From contig NZ_BAAAXG010000026.1 in assembly GCF_039535475.1 (NCBI RefSeq), positions 1,922,001 through 1,986,000 on the forward strand: DNA of 64,000 nucleotides, read 5' to 3'. A model generated the notes under the pieces. That model did no database searches. It was given only the letters and a program-made list of their open reading frames with translations, and was not told where the DNA came from. The DNA comes from Streptomyces showdoensis. Its GTDB lineage: Bacteria > Actinomycetota > Actinomycetes > Streptomycetales > Streptomycetaceae. The stretch's first letter is position 1, and each line of letters starts with the position of its first letter. Below are positions 7,376-61,156 of the stretch, in pieces. A program made the position numbers and the translations under genes.

Positions 7376-7548
7376 GAACCTGTCCCGCCGGCACCTGACC
7401 GAACCGTCCTGTCGACGCCAGACCGAACCGGTCCCGCCGGCACCTGACCGAACCGTCCTGTCGACGCCAGACCGAACCTGTCCCGCCGGCACCTGACCGA
7501 ACCGGTCCTGCCGGCACCTGACCGAACCGGTCCCGCCGGCGCTCAGAC
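7376..7548. repeat. Tandem array of 24-25 bp units overlapping a stop codon
   Basis: Seven contiguous units begin GAACC (five of 25 bp, two of 24 bp). The 24-bp type GAACCGTCCTGTCGACGCCA... occurs twice, each time between units of the 25-bp GAACCKGTCCCGCCGGCACC type. The last unit (7524-7548) contains the stop codon of the Lrp-like gene (TCA at 7543-7545). The gene's own 3' coding sequence, read as GAACCGGTCCTT from 7549, starts the next unit. The array therefore looks like copies of the gene's 3' end laid out downstream of it. There are no spacers. Confidence 0.9.
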
Positions 7549-8604
7549 GAACCGGTCCTTCCAGTGCGGCGTCCGCAGGTCCGGGCGCACGTGGTGCAGT
7601 CGGCGTCCGTCCGGCCCCAGCACCTGCGCGCCCGACTTGTGGGTCCGCAGGCTCAGCGCGGTCCCGGTGATCCGCAGCGAGGGCGCCGCCCGTTCCATCG
7701 CCGTCGTGATGTCGTGCAGCTCGCCGACCGAGCGCAGCCAGGCCCCGACGGCCAGGTTGTGGCCGCCGGTCACCGAGGTCACCAGCCGGGTCTGCCGCAG
7801 CCGCGCCATCGCCGCCGCCGTCGACGCCACCGCGAGCGAGGGCACGTCCGCTCTGATCAGCGCCCACACCGGCCGCCCCGAGAAGCGCGGCGCCGGGACG
7901 CAGTGGTGGATCAGTGTCTCGCCGCCGATCAGGGCCTCCAGCCGGCGCCGTACGGTCGACTCGCTCGCCCCGCAGGTCCGCGCCAGCTCCGCCGCGCTGC
8001 GCCGGGCGTCCCCGGCCAGCTCCAGGACCAGGGCCTCGTCGAGCTCGGTGAGCTGCTGCGTACGCCGCCGCGACACCGCGGGCCTGCCCTGCACGGGTAC
8101 CGGGGCGCCGGTCAGCTGCCGGGCCTGGCGCGGGGTCAGCTGGTCGAGCTGCCACAGGTTCCGCGCGCTGTGCACCCCGGTGACCACCTGGGTCCGCGAG
8201 CGGGTCACCCCGGGCAGCCGCTGCACCCGCAGCGACAGATAGGCGTCCAGGGCCTCCAGGTCGGGGCAGAGCACGAGCAGCACCAGGTCGGTGTCCCCGG
8301 TCACCTCGTGCACGCCCAGGGTGTACGGGTCGCCGGTCAGCTCGATCGCGGTCTCCTCGGAGCGGCCGGCCGCGCAGTCCACCTCCACCCAGGCGTACAG
8401 CGGTGCCCGGGGGCCGTGATGGCGCACCAGGAAGCCGGCCCACGCGTAACCGCCCGTCGTCAGGTGCTCCCAGCGGCGCGCGAGGGTGTCGGGGCCGGCT
8501 CCGAGAACGGCCGAAAGCTGTGTCCAGCTTGCCCGTGGGACGAGTTGCAATGCGTGGATCAGCGCCAGATCCGGCTCTCCCAGGACGGATTCCCCGGATG
8601 GCAT
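7543..8604 (-). CDS. Lrp/AsnC-family regulator with two domain sets
   Basis: The 353-residue protein is about twice the usual Lrp length. An N-terminal helix-turn-helix (LALIHALQLVPRASWTQLSAVL to WEHLTTGGY) is followed by a ligand-binding AsnC-type half with VTGDTDLVLLVLCPD. A second helix-turn-helix follows (LDEALVLELAGDARRSAAEL to STVRRRLEAL), then a second sensor half with SVTGGHNLAVGAWLRS. Such proteins sense amino acids or related metabolites and regulate neighbouring or dispersed genes. The ATG at 8604 has a good AGGAG six nt upstream. It is divergent from the large regulator at 8764, so the 159-nt gap is a likely control region for both. Confidence 0.88.
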   Translation of the reverse strand: MPSGESVLGEPDLALIHALQLVPRASWTQLSAVLGAGPDTLARRWEHLTTGGYAWAGFLVRHHGPRAPLYAWVEVDCAAGRSEETAIELTGDPYTLGVHEVTGDTDLVLLVLCPDLEALDAYLSLRVQRLPGVTRSRTQVVTGVHSARNLWQLDQLTPRQARQLTGAPVPVQGRPAVSRRRTQQLTELDEALVLELAGDARRSAAELARTCGASESTVRRRLEALIGGETLIHHCVPAPRFSGRPVWALIRADVPSLAVASTAAAMARLRQTRLVTSVTGGHNLAVGAWLRSVGELHDITTAMERAAPSLRITGTALSLRTHKSGAQVLGPDGRRLHHVRPDLRTPHWKDRFV

Positions 8605-8763
8605 GCGTCTCCTTGGTCGATTTTCGACAATGGCTTGGCCGGTTTGCTCCCGCCCCCCAGGATTTTGTCCCGGGGCATATGCATTCAAGCCGCAGCCGCG
8701 ATGCCCCGTCATGAAGTCGGGCTGAAGACACCGGACACACAGCAACGGGGCGGGCAGGGGCAG

Positions 8764-10752: not shown

Positions 10753-10754
10753 CC

Positions 10755-10808
10755 GTGGGCGGTGCGGACACCGCGGGCGGTGCGGACACTGCGGGCGGCG
10801 CGGCCACC
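10755..10808. repeat. Three 18-bp tandem units after a stop codon
   Basis: Units of the type GTGGGCGGTGCGGACACC begin 2 nt after the stop of the large regulator gene and repeat three times with small changes. They end about 60 nt before the YdcF start. They read through as Gly/Ala/Thr in the frame of the next gene, so a falsely long YdcF start could be annotated from here. Confidence 0.75.
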
Positions 10809-10868
10809 GTGGGCGCGTGCCCGCCGCGGGGAGGCGGGGGTGTCGGCGGCGATGTCTACGATGAGCGC

Positions 10869-11882: not shown

Positions 11883-11946
11883 CGATCTCCGCCCGCCCGC
11901 CCTACGCTGGAGACGAGGGGCGGCCACGCGCGGCGGAGGCGACGTC

Positions 11947-12228: not shown

Positions 12229-12233
12229 GCGGC

Positions 12234-17675: not shown

Positions 17676-19925
17676 CTATCCGTGCCCGCCGCCGCGTCCG
17701 CCCCCGCCGCCCCCGCGGCCGTTCGTGCCGCCGATCAGGTCCGGCGGGATGGTGATGCCGCCCGGCAGGGTGGTGCCGCCGGGGCGCTGGCCGCCCGGCT
17801 TGTTGTCGTCGCCGGGGCGCTTGTTCTTGTCCTTCTCCTTGTCCTCCGGCTGGGCGCCGCGAGGAACGGTGATCGGGACGAAGCCCGGCGTCTCAGAGGC
17901 GTCGAGCGCCCCCGTCATCGCGATCTTCCAGATCGGGCCCGGGAGGCAGCCGCCGCAGACCTTGTCGTAGTACTGGCCGCCGATGGTGATGTCGTACATC
18001 GAGGTCTTCTCGCCGACGTCGTCACCGACCCACACCGCGGTGGACAGGTTCGGCGTGTAGCCGACGAACCAGGCGTCCTTGCGGTCGTTGGTCGTACCCG
18101 TCTTGCCCGCGTTGTCGCGGTCGCTCAGACCGGCCCGGGTACCCGTGCCGTCCTCGACGACGCCCTTGAGCATCTGGTTGACGGTGTCCGCGGTCTTCTC
18201 GGTCATCGCCCGCGAGCACTCGGTCTGCGGGACCTTCAGCTTCTGGCCGTTGGCCGTGGTGATCGACTCGATGGCGACGGGCGTGCAGTAGGTGCCGCGG
18301 TTGGCGAAGGTCGCGTAGACCGCCGCCATGTCGAGCGGGGTGGACTCCTGGCCGCCGAGGGTGATGGAGGGGAGCTCCTTCAGCTTCTTGCCGAGCTCCT
18401 TCTCGTACCCCATCTTCTTCGCCATCTGGACCGTCTCGCAGAGCCCGGTCATCTGCTCGAGCTGCGCGAAGTAGGTGTTGATGGACTTGCCGAGCGCGCT
18501 GGTCATGTCCCAGCTGCCGGCCTCGGACTGCATCTCGTTCTGCAGGTCCCAGTTGCCGCCGCCCGACGGGCCGCCCGCGCAGGTGCTGTACGAGTTCATC
18601 GGCACCGAGATCTTCCACGGCGTCGAGAAGGACTGGGCCGGGCTCAGCCCCTTCTCCAGGGCCGCCGCGGCCGTGATCGGCTTGAAGGTCGAGCCGACCT
18701 GGAAGCCGTACGTCGTGCCGCCCATCTTCTTGCCGACGGCGAGGTTGAGCGTCGTCTGGTGCAGCTTCTGGTCGAGGCCGTACGGGCGGGACTGGCCCAT
18801 CGACAGGATCTTGCCGCTGTTGGGCTGGACCTGGACCACCGAGGCGGCGACCTTGTCGTCCTTGTCGATCTTGGCGACGGCGGCCTCGTTGGCGGCGGCC
18901 TGGGCGCGCGGGTCGAGCGTGGTGCGGATGGTGAGACCACCCAGGTTCCACAGCTTCTGGCGCTCCTCGGAGGTCTTGCCGAAGACCGGGTCGTTGAGGA
19001 TCGTCTTGCGGACGTAGTCGCAGAAGAAGCCGGCGCCGTCCACGGCGGTGATGCAGCCGTTCTTCGGCGTCTTCACCTTCAGCTTGATCGGGGTGGCCTT
19101 CGCCTGGTCGGCCTCCGCCTGGCTGATGTCCCGCACGTCGGCCATGCGCTGGAGGACGATGTTGCGCCGCTTGGTCGCCTCCTGGATGTCGTTGACCGGG
19201 TCGTAGCGGCTCGGCGACTGGACGAGGCCGGCCATCATGGCGGACTCGGCGAGCGTGAGGTCGGCGGCCGGCTTCGAGAAGTACCGCTGCGAGGCGGCCT
19301 CGATGCCGTAGGCCTGCTGCCCGAAGAACGTGATGTTGAGGTAGTTCTCCAGGATCTTCTTCTTGCCGAGCTCCTCCTCGACCTGGATCGCGAACTTCAG
19401 CTCGCGCACCTTGCGGCCCAGGGTCTGCTGGGTGGCCTGCGCGACCTTCTCGGGGTCGTCGCCCGCCTCCTCGACGAAGACGTTCTTCACGTACTGCTGC
19501 GTCAGCGTGGAGGCGCCCTGCGACACCCCGCCCGACTGCGCGTTGCGGTTGATGGCGCGCAGCACGCCCTTGAGGTCGATCGCGCCGTGCTCGTAGAAGC
19601 GAGAGTCCTCGATCGCGACGATCGCCTTCTGCATGTACGGCGAGATCTTCTCGATCGGCACGACCTTGCGGTCACGCGAGTACACGGTGGCGATGTGGCC
19701 GCCCTGCGAGTCGAGGATGTTGGTGCGCTGACTCAGCGGCGGCGTCTTCAGGTTGGACGGGATCTCGTCGAATCCCTCGACCGTGCCCTTCGCCGCCAGC
19801 CCGAGCGCTCCGGCCGCGGGCAGGGCGATGCCTGCCAGCACGGCTCCGGAGAGCACACTGACACCGAGGAACTTGGCGGCCTGCTGGGTCCCGGTCAGAC
19901 CTCCGCCCGAGCGCTTCTTTGCCAT
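17676..19925 (-). CDS. Bifunctional class A penicillin-binding protein
   Basis: The 749-residue protein has a short cytoplasmic tail, a signal-anchor helix (residues about 19-45), a GT51 glycosyltransferase domain and a transpeptidase domain. Glycosyltransferase motifs are EDSRFYEHG (Glu106) and GASTLTQQYVKN (137-148). Transpeptidase motifs are STFK (Ser412), SIN (481-483) and KTG (608-610). The C-terminus is a Pro/Gly-rich tail. It polymerises and cross-links peptidoglycan at the membrane. The gene is normally divergent from wblA in Streptomyces; here the IS islet lies between them. The ATG at 19925 begins a basic MAKKRSGGG start. Confidence 0.94.
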   Translation of the reverse strand: MAKKRSGGGLTGTQQAAKFLGVSVLSGAVLAGIALPAAGALGLAAKGTVEGFDEIPSNLKTPPLSQRTNILDSQGGHIATVYSRDRKVVPIEKISPYMQKAIVAIEDSRFYEHGAIDLKGVLRAINRNAQSGGVSQGASTLTQQYVKNVFVEEAGDDPEKVAQATQQTLGRKVRELKFAIQVEEELGKKKILENYLNITFFGQQAYGIEAASQRYFSKPAADLTLAESAMMAGLVQSPSRYDPVNDIQEATKRRNIVLQRMADVRDISQAEADQAKATPIKLKVKTPKNGCITAVDGAGFFCDYVRKTILNDPVFGKTSEERQKLWNLGGLTIRTTLDPRAQAAANEAAVAKIDKDDKVAASVVQVQPNSGKILSMGQSRPYGLDQKLHQTTLNLAVGKKMGGTTYGFQVGSTFKPITAAAALEKGLSPAQSFSTPWKISVPMNSYSTCAGGPSGGGNWDLQNEMQSEAGSWDMTSALGKSINTYFAQLEQMTGLCETVQMAKKMGYEKELGKKLKELPSITLGGQESTPLDMAAVYATFANRGTYCTPVAIESITTANGQKLKVPQTECSRAMTEKTADTVNQMLKGVVEDGTGTRAGLSDRDNAGKTGTTNDRKDAWFVGYTPNLSTAVWVGDDVGEKTSMYDITIGGQYYDKVCGGCLPGPIWKIAMTGALDASETPGFVPITVPRGAQPEDKEKDKNKRPGDDNKPGGQRPGGTTLPGGITIPPDLIGGTNGRGGGGGGRGGGHG

Positions 19926-28347: not shown

Positions 28348-29232
28348 GTGTTCGTCCTTGCCATCCTGTTGGTCATAGCCGCAGTGGTGCTCTACATCGT
28401 CGGTCGCGTCAACGACTCCGGAGGCCTCAAGTTCGGAGGCCTCGGCGCCCTGATCGCCGGCCTCTTCTCGCTGATCGTGAGCATGACGTACGTGATCAGC
28501 GCGTACGAGGTCGGCGTCCCGGTCGCCTTCGGCAAGGTCGGCTCGCCGATGTCCTCCGGGATGCACATGAAGTCGCCGTTCACCGACGTCACGACCTTCT
28601 CGACGCGCCCCGTGGACCTCAACCTCTCCGACAAGGACGTGGTCGAGGTCCGCTCCTCGCAGGGCGGCGTGATGTACGCCGAGGTCACCGTGAAGTGGGC
28701 GGTGCACCCCTCCAAGGCCGTCGAGCTCTACAAGCTGGCCGGCAGCGAGGACGCCATCCAGCAGCGCCTCGTCTACCCGGACAGCCGTGAGATCGTCCGC
28801 AACGTCTTCGCCCGCTACAGCAGCGAGCAGGGGTACGCCTCCGACCGCGAGAAGATCAACGCGGAGATCGCCCGCCTGATCAAGGAGCGCCTGGCCCCGC
28901 GCGGCATCGACGTCACCACGGTCAACCTGCGCAACGTGAAGCCCTCGGACGCGCTCCAGGGCCAGATCGACCGCAAGATCCAGCAGCAGCAGGCCACCGA
29001 GCGGGCCCTGGAGGCCGCCCGTACGGCGAAGGCGGAGTCCGACCGGCGCCGCATCGAGGCCGAGGGCATCGCGCGCGCCAACAAGATCCTCAACGACTCG
29101 CTGACCGACAAGGTCCTCATGAACCAGTGCATCGACGCGTACAAGGAGGCCGCCGCCAAGAACCCGGTCTACGCGGTGCCCTGCGGCGGGGGCGGCTCGA
29201 ACCCGCTGATCGTGGACGGCACGAAGCGCTAG
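28348..29232 (+). CDS. SPFH/band-7 domain membrane protein
   Basis: The 294-residue protein has two N-terminal membrane helices (FVLAILLVIAAVVLYIVG and GGLGALIAGLFSLIVSMTYV). A band-7 domain follows (GVPVAFGKVGSPMSSGMH, VTVKWAVHP, EKINAEIARLIKERLAPRGI, VNLRNVKPS). A coiled coil (QQQQATERALEAARTAKAES) precedes a short tail. Prohibitin/flotillin-type proteins form membrane microdomain rings. The gene starts at a GTG with GGGGGAAG just upstream. Its stop region seeds the array downstream. Confidence 0.87.
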   Translation: MFVLAILLVIAAVVLYIVGRVNDSGGLKFGGLGALIAGLFSLIVSMTYVISAYEVGVPVAFGKVGSPMSSGMHMKSPFTDVTTFSTRPVDLNLSDKDVVEVRSSQGGVMYAEVTVKWAVHPSKAVELYKLAGSEDAIQQRLVYPDSREIVRNVFARYSSEQGYASDREKINAEIARLIKERLAPRGIDVTTVNLRNVKPSDALQGQIDRKIQQQQATERALEAARTAKAESDRRRIEAEGIARANKILNDSLTDKVLMNQCIDAYKEAAAKNPVYAVPCGGGGSNPLIVDGTKR

Positions 29233-29470
29233 GACCCGTCCGGCGTACGAAGCGCAGGACCAGTCCGGCGTACGAAGCGCCAGGACCCTTCCGCGCACGA
29301 GGCGCCAGGACCCTTCCGCGCACGAGGCGCCAGGACCCGTCCGCGCACGAGGCGCCAGGACCGTCCGCGCACGAAGCGCCAGGACCGTCCGCGCACGAAG
29401 CGCCAGGACCGTCCGCGCACGAAGCGCCAGGACCGTCCGCGCACGAAGCGCCAGGACCGTCCGCGTACGA
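29218..29470. repeat. Ten-unit 24-26 bp array starting at the SPFH stop codon
   Basis: The first unit (29218-29241) is the last four codons, the TAG stop (29230-29232) and nine following bases of the SPFH gene: GGCACGAAGCGCTAGGACCC... . The later units keep ACGAAGCGCCAGGACC with the stop disrupted (TAG to CAG). Units at 29367-29462 are four identical 24-mers. There are no spacers. The array ends at the terminator shared with crp. Confidence 0.93.
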
Positions 29471-29472
29471 AA

Positions 29473-29507
29473 GAGGGGGCCGCCCGGTCGAACCGGGCGG
29501 CCCCCTC
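29473..29507. terminator. Hairpin between SPFH gene and crp
   Basis: A perfect 16-bp stem (GAGGGGGCCGCCCGGT and complement) with loop CGA sits between the repeat array and the convergent crp gene, and can serve both. Confidence 0.85.
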
Positions 29508-29525
29508 CGTGTCGGTGTGCCGCGA

Positions 29526-30344: not shown

Positions 30345-31526
30345 GTGTCCAACTCGCCGGTGAGAGCACAGGCCAAGGGGGCTGGAAGAGTGCCGGACGA
30401 AGGTAATTCCGCCGTGGGCGAACACGGCGTGTCGAAACAGACGAAAGCGACGAAACGCGCAGCGGTGAAGCGGTCCGGGGCGAAGGCGAAGGCGACGGCG
30501 GCGGAGTCCGCGGGTCCGGAGGCCGCGGCCAAGCCCGCCAAGGCCGCGGCGAAGGCAGTGAAGGCCGTGACGAACCCCGCCAAGGCCGCGGCGAAGCCCG
30601 TGAAGGCCGCGCCCGAGCCCGCCAAGGCCACGACGAAGCCGGCAAAGGCCGCGGCGAAGCCCGCGAAGGCCGCGAAAGCCGTCACGAAGGCCGCGGAGCC
30701 GGTCGACGGCGCCGCGAAGCCGGTGAAGGCCGTCGTGAAGCCCGCCAAGGCGACCAGGCCCGAGTCGCACCTCGCCATGGTGCGGAGGGCCAGGAAGATC
30801 AACCGGGAGCTCGCCGAGGTCTACCCGTACGCCCATCCCGAGCTCGACTTCCGCAATCCCTTCGAGCTCCTGGTCGCCACGGTCATGTCGGCGCAGACCA
30901 CCGACCTGCGGGTCAACCAGACCACCCCGGCGCTCTTCGCGAAGTACCCGACCCCCGAGGACCTGGCCGCCGCCGTCCCCGAGGAGGTCGAGGAGCTGAT
31001 CCGTCCGACCGGGTTCTTCCGCGCCAAGACCAAGTCGATCATGGGCCTGGCCGCCGCCCTCCGGGACGACTTCGGGGGCGAGGTCCCCGGCCGCCTGGAG
31101 GACCTGGTCACCCTGCCCGGCGTCGGCCGCAAGACCGCCTTCGTCGTCCTCGGCAACGCCTATGGAGTGCCCGGCATCACCGTGGACACCCACTTCATGC
31201 GGCTCGCCCGCCGCTGGAAGTGGACCGAGCAGGAGGACCCGGTGAAGATCGAGGCGGAAGTCGCCGGGATCTTCCCGAAGAGCGAGTGGACGATGCTCTC
31301 GCACCGGGTGATCTTCCACGGCCGCCGCATCTGCCACGCCCGCAAGCCCGCCTGCGGCGCCTGCCCGATCACCCACCTCTGCCCCGCGTACGGGGAGGGC
31401 GAGACGGACCCGGAGAAGGCGAAGAAGCTCCTGAAGTACGAGAAGGGCGGCTTCCCGGGCCAGCGGCTCAACCCGCCCCCGGACTATCCCGGCCGCCCTG
31501 CTCCGCCGCTGGGCGCGAGCTCGTGA
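30345..31526 (+). CDS. nth: Endonuclease III with a Lys/Ala-rich N-terminal tail
   Basis: The protein is up to 393 residues, against about 220 for the usual enzyme. Residues about 145-365 form the repair glycosylase/AP lyase. The helix-hairpin-helix [14 protein letters not shown] contains the catalytic lysine, and [11 protein letters not shown] the catalytic aspartate. The [4Fe-4S] cluster cysteines are C-x6-C-x2-C-x5-C in [17 protein letters not shown]. The first about 140 residues are repeated AAKPAKA/KAVKA motifs resembling histone H1 tails. It removes oxidised pyrimidines from DNA. The start is uncertain: GTG 30345 has no good ribosome site, and a GTG at 30390 follows GGAAGA. Confidence 0.9.
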
Positions 31527-43256: not shown

Positions 43257-43266
43257 ACCCTTCGGA

Positions 43267-43312
43267 CAGTACGAACCCGGGGTCGACCTGCGCCGCCAGG
43301 TCGGCCCCGGTC
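43267..43312 (-). repeat. 46-bp copy of the 3' coding end of the next gene
   Basis: Bases 43267-43312 are identical to 43443-43488, which encode TGADLAAQVDPGFVL near the C-terminus of the MinD/CooC-like ATPase. The copy starts 10 nt after the lipoprotein stop and lies 97 nt beyond the ATPase stop. It continues in frame for a few codons to its own stop, so the 3' end of the gene has been duplicated downstream of itself. Confidence 0.9.
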
Positions 43313-43409: not shown

Positions 43410-44396
43410 TCAGCTCGGCTGCGGTACGGCCAGGCGCTCGTCCAGTACGAACCCGGGGTCGACCTGCGCCGCCAGGTCGGCCCCGGTCTTCGCGTTGCCC
43501 CAGCTCTCCGCGTTCTTCAGGTGGAAGTGGACCATCTGGCGCGTGTAGCGCTCCCAGTCGCGGTGGGCGTACGAGTCGTCCGCCGCGTTCTGCAGGGCCT
43601 GCAGGGCCATGCGGTTGGCGGCTTCCAGGAGTTCGAAGCGGGGCGGGCGGCCCTTCTCCATGGAGCGGACCCAGTCGGAGTGGCCGACCGTCACCAGCAG
43701 GTCGTCGCCGACCTCGGCGCGCAGGAACTCCACGTCGTCCGCGCCCTGCACCTTGTTGCCGACCACGCGCAGCGCGACGCCGAAGTCCCGCGCGTACTCC
43801 TTGTACTGGCGGTAGACGGAGACGCCCTTGCGGGTCGGTTCGGCGACCAGGAAGGTCATGTCGAAGCGGGTGAACAGGCCCGAGGCGAAGGAGTCCGAGC
43901 CCGCGGTCATGTCGACCACCACGTACTCGTCGGCCCCGTCCACCAGGTGGTTCAGGCACAGCTCCACGGCGCCGACCTTCGAGTGGTAACACGCCACGCC
44001 GAGGTCCGACTCGGTGAACGGACCGGTCGCCATCAGCCGGATCCCGCCGTCGTCGAGCGGTACGGAACGGGCGCAGGCCTCGTAGACGGGGTTCTCCTCG
44101 CGGACCCGGAGCAGCCGCGAGCCCTCCCCGGGCGGAGTCGTCTTGATCATCGTGTCGGAGGAGGTGATCCGCGGGTTGGAACCCCGCAGGTACTCCTTGA
44201 TCAGCGGCAGGTGCGCGCCCATCGCGGGCAGCGCGGCGGCCTCGTCGTCGGAGAGGCCGAGCGCCGCCCCGAGGTGCTGGTTGATGTCGGCGTCCACCGC
44301 GACGACCGGGGCCCCGGCGGCGGCGAGGTGTCGGATGAAGAGCGAGGACAGCGTGGTCTTGCCGCTGCCGCCCTTCCCCACGAAAGCGATCTTCAT
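43410..44396 (-). CDS. MinD/CooC-like P-loop ATPase
   Basis: The 328-residue protein opens MKIAFVGKGGSGKTTLSSLF, the deviant Walker A of the SIMIBI class. DADINQHLG and VVVDMTAGSDSFASGLFTRF (switch II) follow. It resembles CooC-type ATPases that load metal centres and MinD-type positioning ATPases. The gene lies in the stretch leading to the tad locus. The ATG at 44396 has AGGTGA upstream; a GTG at 44402 is equally possible. Function is inferred from fold alone. Confidence 0.82.
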   Translation of the reverse strand: MKIAFVGKGGSGKTTLSSLFIRHLAAAGAPVVAVDADINQHLGAALGLSDDEAAALPAMGAHLPLIKEYLRGSNPRITSSDTMIKTTPPGEGSRLLRVREENPVYEACARSVPLDDGGIRLMATGPFTESDLGVACYHSKVGAVELCLNHLVDGADEYVVVDMTAGSDSFASGLFTRFDMTFLVAEPTRKGVSVYRQYKEYARDFGVALRVVGNKVQGADDVEFLRAEVGDDLLVTVGHSDWVRSMEKGRPPRFELLEAANRMALQALQNAADDSYAHRDWERYTRQMVHFHLKNAESWGNAKTGADLAAQVDPGFVLDERLAVPQPS

Positions 44397-49423: not shown

Positions 49424-50310
49424 CGGCGATGACGGCGATGACGCCGATGACGGTGATCACGGGTGGTGCCGCGGCGCAGGGGGCGGCGGTGCTGTGCGCG
49501 GGAGGCGCGCTCTGGTGGACGGCCGAGCGGGAGCGGGCGCTCCGCCGGGCTCGGGCGGTCCTGGCGGTGCCCGGCGGAGGTGCTGCGGCCTGGCCGGCGG
49601 CCTTCGGGCGGTGGCGGGAGGCGGCCCGGGGGCGGCCCGAGTGGCTGTGCCTGCCCCTGGCGGCCCTGCTCGGGCTGCTCGGGGGCTCGCTCCTGCCGCT
49701 GCTCGTGGGGGCGGTGGCGGTGCCGCTGGTGGGACGACGGCTGCGGGCGGCCGGGGCCCGGCGGGAGCGGGGGGCGCGCGGCGACGGGGTGGTGGCCCTG
49801 TGCGGGGCGGTCGCGGGCGAGCTGAGAGCAGGGTGGCAGCCCGCGCAGGCCCTCGCGTTCGCCGCCCGCACGACGGGGGCGCTGGGCGGGCAGGAGGCGG
49901 CGGTCGTGGCGGCGGCCCGGTTCGGCGGGGACGTGCCGGAGGCGCTGCGGCGGGCGGCGCGGCGGGACGGCGCCGACGGGCTCGCGGGGATGGCGGCCTG
50001 CTGGCAGGTGGCGGTGGACGGTGGCGCGGGCCTGGCCGCGGGGCTCGACCGCCTGGAGGCGTCCCTGCGGGCCCACCGGGACCAGCGGGAGCGGCTGCGG
50101 GCCCAGTTGGCCGGGGCCTGGGCGACGGTCGTGGTCCTCGCGGTGCTGCCGGTCGCCGGACTGGGGCTGGGGGCCGCGCTCGGCGCGCGACCGCTGCGGG
50201 TGCTGCTGCACACCCCGGCCGGGCTCGGCTGTCTGGTCGTCGGCGGGGCTCTGGAAGCCCTGGGCCTGTGGTGGGCGGCCCGGATCGTGCGCCGAGGGGA
50301 GGAGGCATGA
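49420..50310 (+). CDS. tadB: TadB-like inner membrane platform protein
   Basis: The 296-residue protein has two N-terminal and two C-terminal helix groups (PLAALLGLLGGSLLPLLVGAVAV, TVVVLAVLPVAGLGLGAALG) flanking a GspF-type domain (VVALCGAVAGELRAGWQPAQAL, ACWQVAVDGGAGLAAGLDRL). The start is repeated: ATGACGGCG-like 9-mers give four in-frame ATGs from 49420, so the exact N-terminus is unclear. Confidence 0.87.
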   Translation: MTAMTAMTPMTVITGGAAAQGAAVLCAGGALWWTAERERALRRARAVLAVPGGGAAAWPAAFGRWREAARGRPEWLCLPLAALLGLLGGSLLPLLVGAVAVPLVGRRLRAAGARRERGARGDGVVALCGAVAGELRAGWQPAQALAFAARTTGALGGQEAAVVAAARFGGDVPEALRRAARRDGADGLAGMAACWQVAVDGGAGLAAGLDRLEASLRAHRDQRERLRAQLAGAWATVVVLAVLPVAGLGLGAALGARPLRVLLHTPAGLGCLVVGGALEALGLWWAARIVRRGEEA

Positions 50311-51062
50311 CGGTGGTGCTCGTGGTGCTCTGCGCCGTGGCGTGGGCGGCGGGCACGGCGGCCGACCGGCGCCGCGAGCGGCGGCTGCGCCTCCGCGTCG
50401 CGGCCCTGCTCGCGGCGGGGCAGGAGCCCGAGCCGGCGCGGCGGCGGCGCCCTTCGCTCCCGCCTCGGTTGCGGGCCTGGGCGGTGCCCTGCGCTGCGGG
50501 GCTCGGCGCGTACGCGCTGATCGGCGGGGTGGCGGGCCTGGTGGCCGGGCTCGGCACCGCCTGGGCGCTGCGCCGCATGCGGGCCCGGCGCCCCTCGGGC
50601 GCCTCGCCGGAGGACGCCGAGACCGTTCGTCAGCTCCCGCTGGCCGCCGATCTGTTGGCGGCCTGCGCCTCGGCCGGTGCCGGACCGGGGGAGTCGGCGG
50701 AGGCGGTGGGCCGGTCGTTGGGCGGACCCGTCGGCGAGCGCCTGATCCGTACGGCGGCCGAGCTGAGGCTGGGCGGCGAACCGGCTGAGGTGTGGCGGAG
50801 GTTCGGCGCGATACCGGGTGCGGAGGGGCTGGCCCGATGCCTGGAGCGGGCCGCCTCCTCCGGGGCGCCTGCGGCCGAGGCCGTGGCCCGGCACGCCGAG
50901 GGCCTGCGGGCGGCCCGGGCCCGCGAGGCGTCCGCCCGGGCGCAGCGGGCGCAGGTGCTGATCACCGCACCGGTGGGGCTCTGCTTCCTGCCCGCGTTCC
51001 TGGCGGTGGGGGTCGCCCCGGTGGTCATCGGCCTGGCGACCGGGCTGCTCGGCGGCGGGTGA
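50307..51062 (+). CDS. tadC: TadC-like inner membrane platform protein
   Basis: The 251-residue protein, coupled to tadB by ATGA, has the GspF-type segments LPLAADLLAACASAGAGPGESAEAVGR and AAELRLGGEPAEVWRRFGAI. Its helices are at the N-terminus and middle (VVLVVLCAVAWAAGTAA, CAAGLGAYALIGGVAGLVAGL) and the C-terminus (VLITAPVGLCFLPAFLAVGVAPVVIGL). TadB and TadC form the platform for pilus extrusion. Confidence 0.88.
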   Translation: MTVVLVVLCAVAWAAGTAADRRRERRLRLRVAALLAAGQEPEPARRRRPSLPPRLRAWAVPCAAGLGAYALIGGVAGLVAGLGTAWALRRMRARRPSGASPEDAETVRQLPLAADLLAACASAGAGPGESAEAVGRSLGGPVGERLIRTAAELRLGGEPAEVWRRFGAIPGAEGLARCLERAASSGAPAAEAVARHAEGLRAARAREASARAQRAQVLITAPVGLCFLPAFLAVGVAPVVIGLATGLLGGG

Positions 51063-51424
51063 GCGGGACGGCGGAGGCGGGCGGCTCGGAGGCGATGAAC
51101 GGGATGGGCGGAACGAAAACGATGAACGGGTCGAAAGGGATGAACGCGATGAACGGGACGAAGGAGTCGTGGGTGATGCGGATGGCGACGAGGCGGGCGG
51201 TGGACCTGGTGAAGGTCGGCACGTTCAGGACGGTTCTGCACGGCTGGTGGCGGGTCCGCCGGGCGGCGACGCGGCAGGACGCGGGCATGAGCACCACGGA
51301 GTACGCGATGGGCACGATCGCCGCGGCGGCGTTCGCGGCCGTGCTCTACAAGGTGCTCACCAGCGGGGCGGTCGCCAAGGCCCTGGAGTCGGTGATCGGG
51401 AGGGCACTCGATGCGCCGTTCTGA
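51059..51424 (+). CDS. DUF4244 Flp-pilin-like protein
   Basis: The 121-residue protein is read from GTG 51059 (GTGA overlap). It has a long N-terminal region with repeated MNG/MNA units, then a membrane-like hydrophobic pilin segment after the sequence GMSTTEYAMGTIAAAAFAAVL. The G|MSTTEYA site fits a type IV prepilin cleavage with Glu at +5. This is the pilin subunit of the locus in actinomycetes. No prepilin peptidase gene is in the window. Confidence 0.85.
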   Translation: MSGTAEAGGSEAMNGMGGTKTMNGSKGMNAMNGTKESWVMRMATRRAVDLVKVGTFRTVLHGWWRVRRAATRQDAGMSTTEYAMGTIAAAAFAAVLYKVLTSGAVAKALESVIGRALDAPF

Positions 51425-51767: not shown

Positions 51768-52366
51768 GGAGCGACGACCGGGGAGCGGCGACCGTGTGGA
51801 CGGCGTTCGCGGCCTGCGCCCTGTGCGTGGTGTTCGGGGCCGTACTCGCGCTGGGGCAGGCGGTGGCCGCCAGGCACCGGGCCGGCGGGGCGGCCGACCT
51901 CGCGGCGCTCGCCGCGGCCGACCGGGCGCTGTGGGGCGAGGCGGACGCCTGCGCGATCGCGGTGCGGGTGGCGGCCGCCCAGGGGGCCGCGGTGGTCCGC
52001 TGCCGGGTCGGCGAGGACATCGCGGACGTCACCGCCCGGGTGACGTCCGGGCCGTGGACACCCGAGGTCAGGTCCCGCGCCGGCCCACCCGGCCCGACGG
52101 GCCTCCCGGCGGCCCTCCCGGGTCTTACGGGACCGGAGGTCCCACCTCCAGGTCCGGAGCCGGAGCTCGACCCTCCGGGGCCGGGGGTCCATCCCCCGGT
52201 CCGGTCCGGGGATCCGTCCCCGGTCCGGGGATCCATCCCCCCGGTCCGGTCCGGGGATCCGTCCCCGGTCCGGGGATCCATCCCCCCGGTCCGGTCCGGG
52301 GATCCGTCCCCGGTCCGGGGATCCATCTCCCCGGTCCGGTCCGGTGATCCGTCCCCGATCCGGTGA
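51764..52366 (+). CDS. TadE/Rv3654c-like protein with a repeat-encoded tail
   Basis: The 200-residue protein opens DDRGAATVWTAFAACALCVVFG and continues AAADLAALAAADRALWGEADA-like, fitting the Rv3654c group. The last about 80 residues are Pro-rich; from about residue 145 they consist of four 15-residue repeats of PVRSGDPSPVRGSIP encoded by the 45-bp array at 52196-52420. The family usually ends near residue 120, so the gene has run into a downstream repeat array and acquired a new C-terminus. GTG 51764 overlaps the preceding stop. Confidence 0.78.
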   Translation: MRSDDRGAATVWTAFAACALCVVFGAVLALGQAVAARHRAGGAADLAALAAADRALWGEADACAIAVRVAAAQGAAVVRCRVGEDIADVTARVTSGPWTPEVRSRAGPPGPTGLPAALPGLTGPEVPPPGPEPELDPPGPGVHPPVRSGDPSPVRGSIPPVRSGDPSPVRGSIPPVRSGDPSPVRGSISPVRSGDPSPIR

Positions 52367-52420
52367 TCCATCCCCCTGGTCCGGTCCGGGGACCCGCCCC
52401 TGGCCCGGGGATCAGTCCCC
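52196..52420. repeat. Five-unit 45-bp array overlapping the helicase stop codon
   Basis: Units start at 52196, 52241, 52286, 52331 and 52376, exactly 45 bp apart, each with CCGGTCCGGTCCGGGG and two GGATCC palindromic blocks. The fifth unit (52376-52420) contains the stop codon of the leftward helicase gene (TCA at 52412-52414). A partial related unit precedes the array at about 52151. The 45-bp length is a multiple of three, so the array codes on the + strand. Confidence 0.92.
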
Positions 52421-54892
52421 CTGGTCCTGGGACCCCTCCTCCGGCTCCGGAGCACCGCGCAGCAGTTCCGTGAGCAGGCGGACCGCGCCTCGTTTGTGGA
52501 GGGGGTCGTTGCCGTTGCCGCACTTGGGGGACTGGATGCAGGAGGGGCAGCCGGACTCGCACTCGCAGGAGGCGATGGCCTCGCGGGTGGCGGACAGCCA
52601 GGCGCGGGCGGTGTGGAAGGCGCGTTCGGCGAAGCCGGCGCCGCCGGGGTGGCCGTCGTAGACGAAGACGGTCGGGAGCAGCGTGTCGGGGTGGAGCGGG
52701 ACGGAGACCCCGCCGATGTCCCAGCGGTCGCAGGTGGCGAAGAGCGGCAGCATGCCGATGGAGGCGTGTTCGGCGGCGTGCAGGGCGCCGCCGAGGATCT
52801 CCGGGTTGATCCGGGCGGCGTCGAGCTGGTCCTCGGTGACCGTCCACCACACGGCCCGGGTGCGCAGGGTGCGGGGCGGCAGGTCCAGCTTGCTCTCGCC
52901 GAGCACCTCGCCGGTGATCAGGCGGCGGCGGAGGAAGGAGACGACCTGGTTGGTGACCTCGACGGAGCCGTAGCAGAGGCGGCCGGCGCCCCAGGGGATC
53001 TCGGTGTCGGTGGACAGGACGGAGAGGGAGGTGGTGTCGCGGGCGGTGGTCGAGTAGGGCGGGTTCGCCTCCTCGACGAGGGCCACGGAGTCCTTGAGGT
53101 CGAGCTCGCGGACCAGATAGGTGCGGCCCTGGTGGAGGTGGACGGCGCCCTCGTGGACGGAGGCGTGGGAGGCGGCCTCGTCGACCGTGCCGAGCAGCCG
53201 GCCGGTGCCGGACTCGACGATGCGGACGGGGCTGCCGCCGCCGCCCCGGATGTCGGTGAGGTCGGCGGCCCGCTCCCGGCGGGTCCAGTACCAGCCGGTG
53301 GAACGGCGGCGCAGCAGGCCGGCCGACTCCAGCTGGGGCAGCAGGTCGGGCACGGCGGGGCCGAAGAGCGGGAGGTCGGCCTCGGTCAGGGGGAGCTCCG
53401 CGGCGGCGGCGCACAGATGGGGGGCGAGGACGTAGGGGTTGTCGGGGTCCAGGACCGTCGACTCCACCGGGCGGCGGAAGATCGCCTCGGGGTGGTGGAC
53501 CAGGTAGGTGTCCAGCGGGTCGTCGCGGGCGACCAGGATCGCGAGGGCGCCCTCGCCCGAGCGGCCGGCGCGGCCCGCCTGCTGCCACAGGGAGGCGCGG
53601 GTGCCGGGGTAGCCGGCGATGACGACGGCGTCGAGGCCCGAGACGTCCACGCCCAGCTCCAGGGCGGTCGTGGCGGCCAGGCCGAGGAGCTCGCCCGAGT
53701 GGAGGGCGTGCTCCAGGGCGCGGCGCTCCTCGGGCAGGTAGCCGCCCCGGTAGGCGGCGACCCGGCGGGCGAGGGAGCGGTCGACCTCGGCGAGGCGCTC
53801 CTGGGCGATCACCGAGATCAGTTCGGCGCCGCGCCGGGAGCGGACGAAGGCGACCGAGCGCACGCCCTGGACCGTGAGGTCGGTGAGCAGGTCGGCGGTC
53901 TCGGCGGTGGCGGTGCGCCGGACCGGGGCGCCCTGCTCGCCGTGGAGCTCGGTGAGCGGCGGCTCCCACAGGGCGAAGACCAGTTCGCCGCGCGGGGAGG
54001 CGTCGTCGGAGACCTGGGTGACGGGCAGGCCGGTGAGGCGGCCGGCGGCGCGGGCGGGGTCGGCGGAGGTGGCCGAGGCGAGGAGGAAGACGGGGTCGGC
54101 GCCGTACCGGGCGCAGACGCGGCGGAGACGGCGCAGCACCTGGGCGACGTGCGAGCCGAAGACGCCCCGGTAGGTGTGGCACTCGTCGATGACGACGTAG
54201 CGCAGGGAGCGCAGGAAGGAGGACCACCTGGGGTGGGACGGGAGGATGCCCCGGTGCAGCATGTCGGGGTTGGTGAGGACGTAGTTCGCGTACTGGCGGA
54301 CCCACTCGCGTTCCTCGACCGGGGTGTCGCCGTCGTAGACGGCGGCCCGGACGCGGTTGCCGAGCGGGGCGGCGAGTTCCCTTACGGCGCGGCGCTGGTC
54401 GGCGGCGAGCGCCTTGGTGGGCGCCAGGTACAGGGCGGTGGCGCCGCGCCCGTTGGCGGCCTCGGAGCCGTCCAGGAGGGTGGACAGGACGGGGGTGAGG
54501 TAGGCGAGCGACTTGCCCGAGGCGGTTCCTGTGGCGATCACCACGGAAGTGCCGTCCAGGGCGTGCTCGGCGGCTTCGGCCTGATGGGCCCAGGGGTGCT
54601 CGATCCCGGCGGCCTGGATGGCGTTGATCACTTCCGCGCGGATGCGGTGAGGCCAGACGGCATGACGGCCCTCTCGGGCGGGCAGATGCTCCGTATGGGT
54701 GATGCGCGCGGCCCGGCTCTCGCCTGTGGAGAGCCGGTCCAGGATCTGACCGGGAGAGGGGCGGTTGCCCGTCTCCCCGGCGGGTCGGCGGGGGCGGTGA
54801 TTCTTGGCCATCGGCATCGAGTGTGTCACCGGCGTGACGGACAATGCTTCCAAGGCGTCGTGCATGGCAGTCGGTAAGTGATTGAATGCCAT
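52412..54892 (-). CDS. MrfA/YprA-type DEAD-box helicase
   Basis: The 826-residue protein has ATGTASGKSLAYL (motif I), VVIDECHTYRGVFGSHVA (motif II, DECH variant), TSADPARAAGRLTG (motif III) and QQAGRAGRSGEGALAI (motif VI). A C-terminal DUF1998-type zinc module follows with CECESGCPSCIQSPKCGNGNDPLHK. MrfA/Hrq1-like helicases act in DNA repair, including mitomycin cross-link repair in Bacillus. From the ATG at 54892, codon 6 is TTA, the codon read by bldA tRNA in Streptomyces. It is divergent from bldG. A longer frame to 55024 looks non-coding. Confidence 0.9.
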   Translation of the reverse strand: MAFNHLPTAMHDALEALSVTPVTHSMPMAKNHRPRRPAGETGNRPSPGQILDRLSTGESRAARITHTEHLPAREGRHAVWPHRIRAEVINAIQAAGIEHPWAHQAEAAEHALDGTSVVIATGTASGKSLAYLTPVLSTLLDGSEAANGRGATALYLAPTKALAADQRRAVRELAAPLGNRVRAAVYDGDTPVEEREWVRQYANYVLTNPDMLHRGILPSHPRWSSFLRSLRYVVIDECHTYRGVFGSHVAQVLRRLRRVCARYGADPVFLLASATSADPARAAGRLTGLPVTQVSDDASPRGELVFALWEPPLTELHGEQGAPVRRTATAETADLLTDLTVQGVRSVAFVRSRRGAELISVIAQERLAEVDRSLARRVAAYRGGYLPEERRALEHALHSGELLGLAATTALELGVDVSGLDAVVIAGYPGTRASLWQQAGRAGRSGEGALAILVARDDPLDTYLVHHPEAIFRRPVESTVLDPDNPYVLAPHLCAAAAELPLTEADLPLFGPAVPDLLPQLESAGLLRRRSTGWYWTRRERAADLTDIRGGGGSPVRIVESGTGRLLGTVDEAASHASVHEGAVHLHQGRTYLVRELDLKDSVALVEEANPPYSTTARDTTSLSVLSTDTEIPWGAGRLCYGSVEVTNQVVSFLRRRLITGEVLGESKLDLPPRTLRTRAVWWTVTEDQLDAARINPEILGGALHAAEHASIGMLPLFATCDRWDIGGVSVPLHPDTLLPTVFVYDGHPGGAGFAERAFHTARAWLSATREAIASCECESGCPSCIQSPKCGNGNDPLHKRGAVRLLTELLRGAPEPEEGSQDQGD

Positions 54893-58593: not shown

Positions 58594-58674
58594 GCCCGCG
58601 TCCGCCCGTCCGGCCGTGGGCTCCGTCTGCTTCCGGCCGCCGCGGCTCCGGCCGCGCGTGACGCGCCGTCAAAG

Positions 58675-58714
58675 CAGGGGCGGACGTCCCGTTCTGACGT
58701 GACGTCCGCCCCTG
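58675..58714. terminator. Hairpin after hppA
   Basis: CAGGGGCGGACGTC pairs with GACGTCCGCCCCTG around a 12-nt loop, 81 nt after the stop. Confidence 0.82.
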
Positions 58715-58826
58715 TCTGCTTGGTGCAAACGACTGCAATATCGGATGAATCGGTCCCACGAACGGTGGAAGTCACCCGTCCGGCGTGTATGTTCCGGGGC
58801 CGAGAGCCTTGGAAGGGACCGATCCG

Positions 58827-59450
58827 GTGAACAAGAAGCTTGCGGCCGCGCTGTCCGGCGGTGCGGTACTGGTGCTCGCGCTGTCGGGTTGCAGCGACGA
58901 CAAGGGCGACAAGGTGAACGACTGGGCCAAGACGTTCTGCGACCAGGCGCAGCCGCAGATCCAGAAGCGGGCCGACGCGAACCAGCTGATCATCTCCACG
59001 GCGGCCGACAGCAAGCCCGTCACGATCAAGGCCGCCGACTCGAAGGCCTTCGCCGACATCGCCGCCGCCGACCGCGCGCTGGCCAAGGCCGTCGAGAGCG
59101 CCGGGGCGCCGCCCGTCGACAACGGCGAGAAGGTCCAGCAGGACGCCATCAAGGAGCTCAACGCCACGGCCGTGGCCTACGAGGGCCTGAAGAAGCAGGT
59201 CGACGCGCTGGACACGTCGAACCAGCAGAAGTTCGCCGACGGCCTGAAGGTCGTCTCCGAGAACCTCGGCAAGATCCAGAACATGGACCAGGACGCCGTC
59301 GCCAAGCTCCAGGCCGGCGAACTCGGCCAGGCCATGGCCAAGCAGCCGGGCTGCCAGACCCCGTCCGCCTCCCCGAAGCCGGGCGCCCCGGCCTCCCCGA
59401 AGACGGACTCCACCCCGGTCACCAAGTCGACCGCCTCGCCCAAGCCGTAG
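58827..59450 (+). CDS. Small helical lipoprotein
   Basis: The 207-residue protein starts at GTG 58827 with MNKKLAAALSGGAVLVLALS and lipobox LSGC. A helical domain follows (KTFCDQAQPQIQKRADANQL, ADRALAKAVESAGAPP, YEGLKKQVDALDTSNQQKFA) and a Pro/Ser/Thr-Lys-rich tail (SASPKPGAPASPKT). It belongs to a Streptomyces family of unknown function. An upstream in-frame ATG at 58785 lies before a signal peptide and is less likely. Confidence 0.82.
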   Translation: MNKKLAAALSGGAVLVLALSGCSDDKGDKVNDWAKTFCDQAQPQIQKRADANQLIISTAADSKPVTIKAADSKAFADIAAADRALAKAVESAGAPPVDNGEKVQQDAIKELNATAVAYEGLKKQVDALDTSNQQKFADGLKVVSENLGKIQNMDQDAVAKLQAGELGQAMAKQPGCQTPSASPKPGAPASPKTDSTPVTKSTASPKP

Positions 59451-59466
59451 CGGGGCCACGGGCCGT

Positions 59467-59505
59467 GTGCGGGCCGGTCCGGCGCATCGCCGGGCCGGCC
59501 CGCAC
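59467..59505. terminator. 17-bp hairpin after the lipoprotein gene
   Basis: GTGCGGGCCGGTCCGGC pairs with GCCGGGCCGGCCCGCAC (one G-U) around a 5-nt loop. Confidence 0.83.
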
Positions 59506-59552
59506 GCCGTCGTTGGCGGCCGTTGTCGGTGGCGCCCGTCACAATGGGGCAC

Positions 59553-61088
59553 GTGAGTACGACCAGCACGACCCCCAGCCTCCCGGTGCCCACGCACGCC
59601 GTCCGACTGCGCGAGGCACTGCTCGCCGCCGACTTCACCGCCGACGGTCTGCTCGACCTGCTCGGCGCGCAGGCCTATGCCGCGCTCGCCCGCAGCGAGA
59701 CCGTGCCCGCCCTCCGGGCGACCCGCGGGGACTCCCCGCTGGAGACCCTCGTCCGCCTCTTCCTGCTCCAGCGGTCCGTGGCGCACGAGCGGGCCGCCGC
59801 GGCGCTGCCCCTGGCGGAGGCGCTCGCCGACGGCTGGGTCGTCCGCGAGGACGACACCGTGCTCGCCACCGTCGACGTACGGCCGTACGGCGGGCCGGAC
59901 GGCGAGGACTGGTTCATCGTCTCCGACCTCGGCTGCGCTGTCGGCGGGGCCGGCGGCATCGGGAAGAAGGACGAGGGAGTCGTGCTCGGCGTCGGCGGGG
60001 CCTCCACCACCCTCGCCGGCATCACCGTCCGCACCCCCGTCGCCACCGCCCTCGACCTCGGCACCGGCTCCGGCATCCAGGCGCTGCACGCCGCCCAGCA
60101 CGCCACCCTGGTCACCGCGACCGACCTCAACCCGCGGGCCCTCGACTTCACCCGGCTCACCCTCGCCCTCTCCGGGGCCCGGGGCGCCGAGCTGCTGACC
60201 GGTTCGCTCTTCGAGCCGGTCGACGGCGACACGTACGACCTGATCGTCTCCAACCCGCCGTTCGTGATCTCCCCGGGCGCCGGGCTCACCTACCGGGACG
60301 GCGGCATGGGCGGCGACGACCTGTGCCGCACGCTCGTCCAGGAGGCCGGCGAGCGGCTCAACGACGGCGGATACGCCCAGTTCCTCGCCAACTGGCAGCA
60401 CGTCGAGGGCGAGGAGTGGCAGGACCGGCTGCGCTCCTGGGTGCCGCGCGGCTGCGACGCGTGGATCGTGCAGCGCGAGGTCCAGGACGTCACCCAGTAC
60501 ACCGAGCTGTGGCTGCGCGACAGCGGCGACCACCGCGGCGACCCGGACGCGTACCGGGAGGCGTACGGGCGCTGGCTCGACGAGTTCGAGGCCCGCAAGA
60601 CCAAGGGGATCGGCTTCGGCTGGATCACCCTGCGCAAGAGCGCGGCCGTCGCCGCCGGCCAGGCCGAGCCGTCGATCGTCCTGGAGGAGTGGCCGCACCC
60701 CGTCGAGCAGCCCCTCGGCGACACCGTACGCGCCCACTTCGAGCGCCAGGACTACCTGCGCGGCCGGGACGACGCGGCGCTGCTCGCCGACCGCTTCGCC
60801 CTCGCACCCGAGGTCGTCCAGGAGCAGGTCGGCCTGCCCGGCGCCGAGGACCCCGAGCACGTGCTGCTCCGCCAGAACCGCGGGATGCGCCGGGCCACCC
60901 GGGTGGACCACGTGGCGGCCGGCTTCGCGGGCGTCTGCGACGGCACGCTGAGCGCCGGGCGGATCCTCGACGCCATCGGCCAGCTGACCGGCGAGGACCC
61001 GGTCCTGCTGCGGGACCGCACCCCGCAGGCGATCCGGCTGCTGGTGGAGGAGGGCTTCCTGCTGCCGGTGACCGACGACGCCGGCTGA
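59553..61088 (+). CDS. SAM-dependent methyltransferase with N-terminal and C-terminal extra domains
   Basis: The 511-residue protein has motif I ALDLGTGSGIQALHAA, acidic loop VTATDLNPRALDFTRL and the amino-methyltransferase signature LIVSNPPFVISPG (NPPF), typical of methyltransferases acting on amide or exocyclic amine nitrogens. An N-terminal helical domain of about 150 residues and a C-terminal winged domain of about 130 residues are outside the core. GTG 59553 was chosen because upstream codons are not protein-like. Substrate unknown. Confidence 0.82.
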   Translation: MSTTSTTPSLPVPTHAVRLREALLAADFTADGLLDLLGAQAYAALARSETVPALRATRGDSPLETLVRLFLLQRSVAHERAAAALPLAEALADGWVVREDDTVLATVDVRPYGGPDGEDWFIVSDLGCAVGGAGGIGKKDEGVVLGVGGASTTLAGITVRTPVATALDLGTGSGIQALHAAQHATLVTATDLNPRALDFTRLTLALSGARGAELLTGSLFEPVDGDTYDLIVSNPPFVISPGAGLTYRDGGMGGDDLCRTLVQEAGERLNDGGYAQFLANWQHVEGEEWQDRLRSWVPRGCDAWIVQREVQDVTQYTELWLRDSGDHRGDPDAYREAYGRWLDEFEARKTKGIGFGWITLRKSAAVAAGQAEPSIVLEEWPHPVEQPLGDTVRAHFERQDYLRGRDDAALLADRFALAPEVVQEQVGLPGAEDPEHVLLRQNRGMRRATRVDHVAAGFAGVCDGTLSAGRILDAIGQLTGEDPVLLRDRTPQAIRLLVEEGFLLPVTDDAG

Positions 61089-61156
61089 CCGACGGCGCCG
61101 GCTGACCGACGGCGCCGGCTGACCGACGGCGCCGGCTGACCGACGACGCCGGCTGG
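61072..61156. repeat. Five-unit 17-bp array starting at the methyltransferase stop
   Basis: Unit 1 (61072-61088) is CCGACGACGCCGGCTGA, the last codons plus stop TGA of the gene. Units 2-4 are exact CCGACGGCGCCGGCTGA copies at 17-bp steps. Unit 5 ends CTGG, losing the stop. Because 17 is not a multiple of three, the copies rotate frame, yet each keeps a TGA. Confidence 0.94.

Follow-up and report, generated by a model that had tools for sequence, protein, structure and literature searches.

Why do tandem arrays in a Streptomyces genome repeatedly sit on the stop codon of a gene? In the window, a stretch of 64,000 nucleotides from Streptomyces showdoensis, four arrays each enclose the stop of a called gene, and a sequence-only reading had offered two explanations, a process that copies gene 3' ends or slippage combined with selection against gene disruption. 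The analysis favours the latter: with a probability of roughly 0.83, these arrays are locus-private minisatellites produced by slippage and tolerated at stops by a selection filter.

Stop-covering arrays of the window

The four arrays were delimited with TRF and by inspection of the sequence, and the flanking genes with a gene caller and domain searches. Array 1 (7375-7558, minus strand; period 25 bp, about 7.4 copies, with higher-order periods of 49 and 74 bp) runs from the stop (TGA, 7543-7545) of a minus-strand gene with AsnC/Lrp-type domains (7543-8604; Pfam PF13404 and PF01037) toward the next minus-strand gene (6989-7306). Array 2 (29219-29471, plus strand; 24-bp unit, 10.3 copies) carries in its first unit the TAG (29230-29232) of an SPFH/Band_7 gene (28384-29232, plus strand; PF01145) and lies between this stop and a terminator-like hairpin that ends it (29473-29507, plus strand; fold of 29466-29516 at -42.1 kcal/mol, z -6.5). 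Array 3 (52181-52427, minus strand; 45-bp unit, 5.5 copies) extends downstream of the stop (TGA, 52412-52414, inside the array) of a DEAD-box helicase gene with an MZB domain (52412-54631, minus strand; TIGR03817). Array 4 (61064-61155, plus strand; 17-bp unit, 5.5 copies) includes the TGA (61086-61088) of a DUF7059 methyltransferase gene (59544-61088, plus strand). The sequence-only reading had placed the stop in the terminal unit at all four loci; all four arrays do include it, but in array 4 it falls in the second unit, the overlap with the gene being 25 bp against a period of 17 bp, so that the first unit is coding and the stop may itself be a product of this array.

Two further loci belong to this picture. 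TRF reports a fifth stop-covering array (51041-51112, plus strand; 37-bp unit, 1.9 copies) between the called genes 50307-51062 and 51104-51424, which also covers the start of the second gene; in total, five of the 12 mostly noncoding arrays with a score of at least 80 in the window cover a stop. The locus previously taken for a single copy of a stop region (43267/43443) is instead a 51-bp direct repeat (43262-43312 and 43438-43488, copies 96% alike) whose genic copy is separated by 25 bp from the stop downstream of it (43410-43412); the stop codons of the called genes on either side fall in neither copy, and what was duplicated is a coding piece.

The units are G+C-rich in consensus, match one another at 80, 93, 91 and 96% in arrays 1 to 4, respectively, and contain private substitutions. 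They are also private to their loci. In genome-wide pattern searches all five matches to the unit of array 2, all four to a 28-bp part of the unit of array 3 and all four to the unit of array 4 fell inside the respective array, while the unit of array 1 had one match outside its locus, with two mismatches and within the control count. Neither these searches nor the TRF consensus units revealed any sequence common to units of different loci. A mobile element and a common repeat element are thus both rejected as the source, in agreement with the previous view that the differing units are not copies of one such element. With head-to-tail units within about 10-100 bp (periods 17, 24, 25 and 45), private to each locus and locally derived, the latter shown at 29219 only, the arrays share these properties with bacterial minisatellites of the VNTR type.

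Stops, starts and the reading frame

The asymmetry between stops and starts is real and recurs in relatives. It was counted in a pooled set of 2.46 Mb, made up of the S. showdoensis genome and stretches of 20 congeners, using TRF arrays with a score of at least 80 and repeating the counts at 60 or more; periods below 10 bp or above TRF's limit of 200 were left out, as were arrays 50 to 99.9% coding (two) or without a called gene on both sides (four), the corresponding numbers at 60 or more being five partly coding and ten. In this set, the 108 arrays that are mostly noncoding extend over 32 stops but only one start. In 450 kb of Nonomuraea, 35 arrays cover seven stops and no start. There are 36 arrays in the 66.8 kb of convergent gaps, compared to nine in the 119.2 kb of divergent ones. 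When compared with the annotation of an IS-rich plasmid stretch, the gene caller found 19 of 34 complete annotated genes, with all 19 stops right and seven of the 19 starts exact; because so few starts were exact, the start-side counts were redone on starts whose position is pinned by an in-frame stop further upstream, and an array lay within 60 bp of 5/418 pinned starts, compared to 92/2100 stops and 23/2100 starts overall. On the start side of the helicase gene, an array was present in one of 80 named genomes.

How far this departs from chance depends on the null. A fitting one lets a unit extend across a gene end only where this leaves the reading frame intact. With equal overhang tolerance at both gene ends, 19.8 stops and 7.7 starts are expected in the pooled set, and 14.9 and 5.7 in the S. 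showdoensis genome (12.0 and 4.7 with a wider allowed range). With overhang allowed at stops only and uniform placement in the gap, 21.0 stop-covering arrays are expected and 31 observed in the pooled set (p = 0.004), against 15.8 and 19 in the S. showdoensis genome alone (p = 0.18) and 5.2 and 12 in the relatives alone (p < 0.001). The earlier statement that chance placement at stops is unlikely therefore stands relative to start codons, but much less so relative to frame tolerance.

The frame itself leaves a clear mark on the periods. At a score of at least 80, all 120 coding arrays of the pooled set have periods divisible by three, as compared to 7 of 31 stop-spanning arrays and 43 of 108 noncoding ones; in Nonomuraea, the figures are 20/20 for coding and 20/35 for noncoding arrays. 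As the noncoding multiples of three exceed one third, some arrays counted as noncoding may sit in missed genes. Additionally, in 30 of the 32 stop overlaps the array reaches into the gene by no more than one period (+2 bp), which indicates that the stop was already present when the unit was copied.

The positions of the array edges give a less uniform picture. Pooled edge density is 0.88 per 1000 end-bp over the stop (0.69 with the longer best period), 0.89 at -2 to 10 bp past it, 0.68 at 11-25 bp and about 0.5 up to 90 bp, while the start side shows 0.01-0.30. The S. showdoensis genome has 0.62-0.80 over the stop versus 1.07 just past it, and the relatives 0.84-1.03 versus 0.47 (13 and 3 arrays). 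Coding arrays with a score of at least 60 cover the two gene ends about equally, with 1.1% near stops and 0.91% near starts at 100-160 bp and 1.29% and 1.22% at 50-100 bp; at 80 or more, the pooled set shows a 1.6- to 1.9-fold excess of them near stops (0.77% on the 3' side versus 0.41% on the 5' side at 100-160 bp). Given the edge excess over the stop in relatives, this lean of the higher-scoring coding arrays and the exceeded uniform null, a mild mutation bias of tandem duplications toward 3' ends is possible.

Origin of the arrays and rival explanations

At 29.2 kb, among 28 relatives that keep the end of the SPFH gene, none has an array over its stop: in one set of 20, no array is found and the C-terminus reads VDG[TS]KR in 19 and VDTKK in one, and two of the eight further relatives have another array downstream. 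Most of the array-free relatives share the C-terminus up to and including its final codon, and a like hairpin follows the stop in all 20 of the first set, as judged by eye rather than by folding. In the nearest relative (G382), CACGAAG stands at the end of the gene and TACGGAAG ahead of the hairpin. Because array-free relatives keep the same gene end, array 2 is, on sequence comparison, derived from the gene's own 3' end. The claim that the other units are copies of a gene 3' end applies at 29219, except that those units do not retain the TAG but read CAG or have lost one base. Among the helicase 3' ends of the 80 named genomes, five have a stop-spanning array, 18 one downstream, 41 none and 16 one inside the tail, these last all with periods that are multiples of three.

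In the proposed mechanism, short direct repeats of about 5 bp are misaligned during slipped-strand replication or in an equivalent way, and the resulting arrays go on to gain and lose units. A signature of slippage between short direct repeats, namely an array that exceeds whole copies by a short flanking repeat, is found in 43 two-copy arrays, which extend on average 6.0 bp (median 5) beyond two copies, compared to 1.0 bp in simulated blunt duplications (1047 of 1500 detected); the extra bases could partly be remnants of a third copy. Such misalignments would happen all along the chromosome. Inside a gene, only tandem duplications with a unit length divisible by three would be kept, and those arising close to a promoter or start codon would mostly be lost, presumably through selection. 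A stop-spanning unit of any length, in contrast, would be harmless, because the ribosome meets the original last codons and the stop first and the copies come after. At 29.2 kb, with the terminator about 25 bp past the stop, a 24-bp unit sparing both gene and terminator would have to cover the stop, and the array would then have expanded between the two. The arrays themselves would have no function. The frame rule, the extra bases of two-copy arrays and the array-free relatives with the same gene end all support this combination of slippage with selection against gene disruption.

A dedicated process that copies 3' ends, for instance by re-replicating them locally or by reverse-transcribing terminated transcripts, would start arrays at stops and would account for the stop/start disparity, the array-rich convergent gaps, the edge excess in relatives and the 3' tilt of coding arrays at 80 or more. 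It is nevertheless highly improbable: the stop itself is not favoured over the positions just past it in the S. showdoensis genome or the pooled set, coding arrays at 60 or more are alike near both gene ends, and frame-keeping arrays also arise within genes. Such a process is not needed to explain the pattern. Just as improbable is the idea that arrays invade a gene and generate its stop, with a non-triplet period shifting the frame until the array itself supplies a stop codon. Array 4 would fit, and the C-terminal tails of the genes at arrays 1, 3 and 4 differ from those of their relatives, but an overlap exceeding one period, which this predicts, is found in only 2 of 32 cases, leading to its rejection as a general cause, and the conserved C-terminus at 29.2 kb also speaks against it.

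A function of the arrays, for example in transcription termination or the protection of mRNA 3' ends by tandem hairpins, is hardly more probable. The arrays are concentrated in 3' gaps, and a stretch of about two units of array 3 folds somewhat more stably than shuffled sequence (z -2.5); however, the relatives examined lack the 29.2-kb array yet keep the hairpin, the units share no sequence, and arrays 1, 3 and 4 outdo shuffled sequence in folding by a mild margin at best (z -0.4 to -2.5), in scores that repeats inflate. The chance of an assembly artefact is negligible, even with the genome in 29 contigs: no sign of such an error was seen, the units carry private substitutions, and the pattern recurs in the stretches of the 20 congeners and in a record deposited as complete, so that an artefact of one assembly is rejected. 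More room is left for the idea that, besides being subject to the selection filter, Streptomyces gene 3' ends receive extra duplication input connected with termination hairpins or with transcription that converges there; although doubtful, it would make stop-spanning minisatellites markers of where replication meets transcription ends.

Relation to known repeat systems

If slippage and a selection filter suffice, a striking pattern is accounted for without a new mechanism, and the arrays record how selection treats small duplications in nature, which keep the frame within genes, are unconstrained at stops and are rare at starts. Stop-spanning arrays might also serve as fast strain-typing markers in Streptomyces. 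A literature search, with most subscription journals outside its scope, found no paper that counts stop versus start overlap of minisatellites and, on stop codons and tandem repeats in Streptomyces, nothing on point beyond the papers cited here.

Mycobacterial interspersed repetitive units (MIRU) are likewise tandem units between genes, but they form one sequence family, whereas the units described here are unrelated between loci. A parallel among bacterial intergenic minisatellites is given by the rnc-fpg1 repeats of Mycobacterium tuberculosis, which vary among strains and likewise consist of direct repeats, tens of bp long and in tandem, downstream of a gene, with array-free relatives keeping a short gap; they start 40 bp after the stop, whereas the Streptomyces arrays include it (PMC2734929). 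The TAACTGA heptads of Beggiatoaceae are one conserved 7-bp unit used genome-wide and placed mostly before start codons (PMC4679880), whereas here each locus has its own unit, none of the four arrays has a TRF period of 7 bp, and starts are avoided. Borg tandem repeats (PMC9879509) differ in having perfect, A-enriched units, those of Streptomyces being imperfect (80-96% matches) and G+C-rich, and they resemble the present arrays in their unique units, likely arising from local sequence, in their flanking partial repeats and in the frame-keeping periods found inside genes.

Stop codons inside tandem arrays

Four arrays in the window, which belongs to a genome of 8.5 Mb in 29 contigs, have the stop codon of the flanking gene inside, as both TRF and reading of the sequence bore out: array 1 (7375-7558, period 25) at the gene of an AsnC/Lrp-type regulator, array 2 (29219-29471, period 24) at that of an SPFH/Band_7 protein, array 3 (52181-52427, period 45) at that of a DEAD-box helicase with an MZB domain (TIGR03817), and array 4 (61064-61155, period 17) at that of a DUF7059 methyltransferase. 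The sequence-only reading held that the units are not copies of one mobile element, and a genome pattern search agrees, since for arrays 2-4 every match to the unit pattern falls at the array's own locus; the unit of array 1 has one further match with 2 mismatches, no more than the control count. The fifth locus, described there as a single copy of a stop region, is instead a 51-bp direct repeat (43262-43312 and 43438-43488, spacing 176 bp) excluding the stop; one copy is intergenic and lies 5 bp beyond the plus-strand gene's stop, the other is inside the minus-strand gene.

The window has other repeats as well. The gap behind array 4 (61184-61364) holds three with different units (19 bp in 2.7 copies, 26 bp in two perfect copies and 13 bp in four), and the called gene at 30465-31526 contains internal 21/42/63-bp repeats (30520-30751) of frame-keeping period. 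Within the 45-bp unit of array 3, two 14-mers (GGGGATCCATCCCC and a variant) are nearly self-complementary, which could allow a series of small hairpins along the array; a fold of about two units gives z -2.5. Several methyltransferase relatives have in common a stretch starting right at the stop (corresponding to position 61089 onward). A search allowing 3 mismatches did not find it in the window, apart from three weak matches scattered elsewhere; judging from this comparison, the 3' flank seems to have changed in this genome.

Coverage of stops and starts

Arrays were detected by TRF, and genes were called with a frame-specific Markov model, in 80 stretches of 20 kb from contig NZ_BAAAXG010000026.1 plus the window (1.66 Mb) and in 40 equally long stretches taken from 20 congeners (2.46 Mb pooled). 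Congener stretches were handled identically with the own genome's gene model, and genes were missed there, as the called coding fraction of 0.78 indicates. Counted arrays were mostly noncoding, with a called gene on either side and a score of at least 80 (also at least 60). At the higher threshold, 32 stops lie within the 108 pooled arrays, against 1 start (own genome: 78 arrays, 19 and 1; relatives: 30 arrays, 13 and 0), and at the lower one 189 arrays cover 53 and 2. On an IS-rich plasmid stretch the caller recovered 19 of 34 annotated genes, with all 19 stops right and 7 of 19 starts exact; when only starts fixed by an in-frame stop upstream are used, the contrast persists, with an array within 60 bp at 5/418 starts versus 92/2100 stops. 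Array counts are 36 in 66.8 kb of convergent gaps and 9 in 119.2 kb of divergent gaps. An exception to this paucity lies just upstream of the window (L016, a sampled stretch, 18470-18738), where a 12-bp unit is repeated 22.4 times with 99% matches in a divergent gap.

A null model with equal overhang at both gene ends predicts 19.8 stops and 7.7 starts. Under a second null, in which overhang is tolerated at stops only and placement within the gap is uniform, 21.0 stop-covering arrays are expected and 31 observed (p 0.004), so tolerance explains much of the stop excess, not all. The relatives also exceed this second null (5.2 expected, 12 observed, p <0.001); in the own genome the difference is not significant (15.8 and 19, p 0.18).

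Frame, array edges and the source of the units

The pattern at gene ends is real, and its best account, to which we give a probability of about 0.83, is slippage between short direct repeats together with what selection tolerates. Periods are divisible by three in 120/120 arrays wholly within called genes at score at least 80 (294/309 at 60), in 43/108 noncoding arrays and in 7/31 stop-spanning ones; the rule within genes is partly built in, because a frame-breaking array would terminate the called gene. Such an array should overlap by more than one period before the stop, and 30 of 32 stop overlaps do not exceed one period, the exceptions being an overlap of 25 bp at period 17 (the array at 61064) and one of 18 bp at period 14.

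The SPFH gene also supports this account. The 28 relatives examined, comprising 20 of the nearest 22 listed and 8 from another search that include the remaining two, have no stop-covering array. The 20 have no array of score at least 55 beginning within 300 bp and keep the gene end (VDG[TS]KR in 19, VDTKK in 1), with a hairpin, judged by eye, within tens of bp in all; two of the 8 carry another downstream array (L088, two 31-bp copies 40 bp past the stop; L094, a 12-bp array 6 bp past it). The own hairpin (-42.1 kcal/mol, z -6.5), whose core is also present in the nearest relative, G382, comes after a run of ten 24-bp units. Both the gene end (29220) and the sequence directly before the hairpin (29466) contain the motif [CT]ACGAA, the corresponding places in G382 reading CACGAAG and TACGGAAG; misalignment between two such repeats would give a stop-covering unit. 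Likewise, 43 two-copy noncoding arrays extend 6.0 bp beyond two copies, against 1.0 bp in simulated blunt duplications, which agrees with misalignment between short repeats.

The alternative, a process copying 3' ends, is not supported by the combined edge profile. Pooled edge density (score at least 80, per 1000 end-bp) is 0.88 across the stop with the mean smallest period as zone width (0.89 in a separate count), or 0.69 with the mean best period, and 0.89 at -2..10 bp. Farther out it falls to 0.68 at 11-25 bp, 0.49 as far as 90 bp and 0.39 past that, with 0.01 to 0.30 on the start side; the 25 bp around the stop are denser than the remaining gap, and the stop codon is no special site when both samples are combined. 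The samples differ at the stop, with 0.62-0.80 against 1.07 past it in the own genome and 0.84-1.03 against 0.47 in the relatives (13 and 3 arrays), which slightly weakens the slippage-selection reading and strengthens that of a 3' bias. Pooled coding coverage at score at least 60 argues against a 3' mutation bias (near stops and starts, 1.29% and 1.22% at 50-100 bp, 1.1% and 0.91% at 100-160 bp), and at 80 it leaves room for one (0.74% and 0.47%; 0.77% and 0.41%). An extra 3'-end input of tandem duplications on top of the selection filter is improbable.

Recurrence and known cases

The nearest named helicase relatives are Streptomyces, which suggests that this genome is one too. For the best 80 of 580 relatives, from named genomes, the scan took in the 150 bp leading up to the stop and the 200 bp following it (score at least 60; the gene end of L305 contains a run of N, and L271 and L318 have little or no flank). 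Arrays occur in 39: 5 stop-spanning, 16 in the tail, all with periods a multiple of three, and 18 downstream, with units differing between relatives by eye. On the start side, where a simple rule defined the starts, 1 of the 80 has an array, about 200 bp upstream. One helicase tail (L288:4213-4383) carries 9.5 copies of a frame-keeping 18-bp unit encoding a GAGSTE-type repeat. A separate congener set, which may overlap in species, has stop-spanning arrays in 2/29 helicase and 1/29 methyltransferase relatives. Outside the genus, 450 kb of Nonomuraea gerenzanensis (caller retrained) hold 35 noncoding arrays covering 7 stops and 0 starts, with periods divisible by three in 20/20 coding and also 20/35 noncoding arrays.

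Mycobacterium tuberculosis has a variable array after rnc, absent from the compared mycobacteria outside its complex (PMC2734929), and heptad repeats overlapping stops are described, multiples of three being said to prevail within genes (PMC4679880). The individual elements are thus already known, and the present count brings them together.
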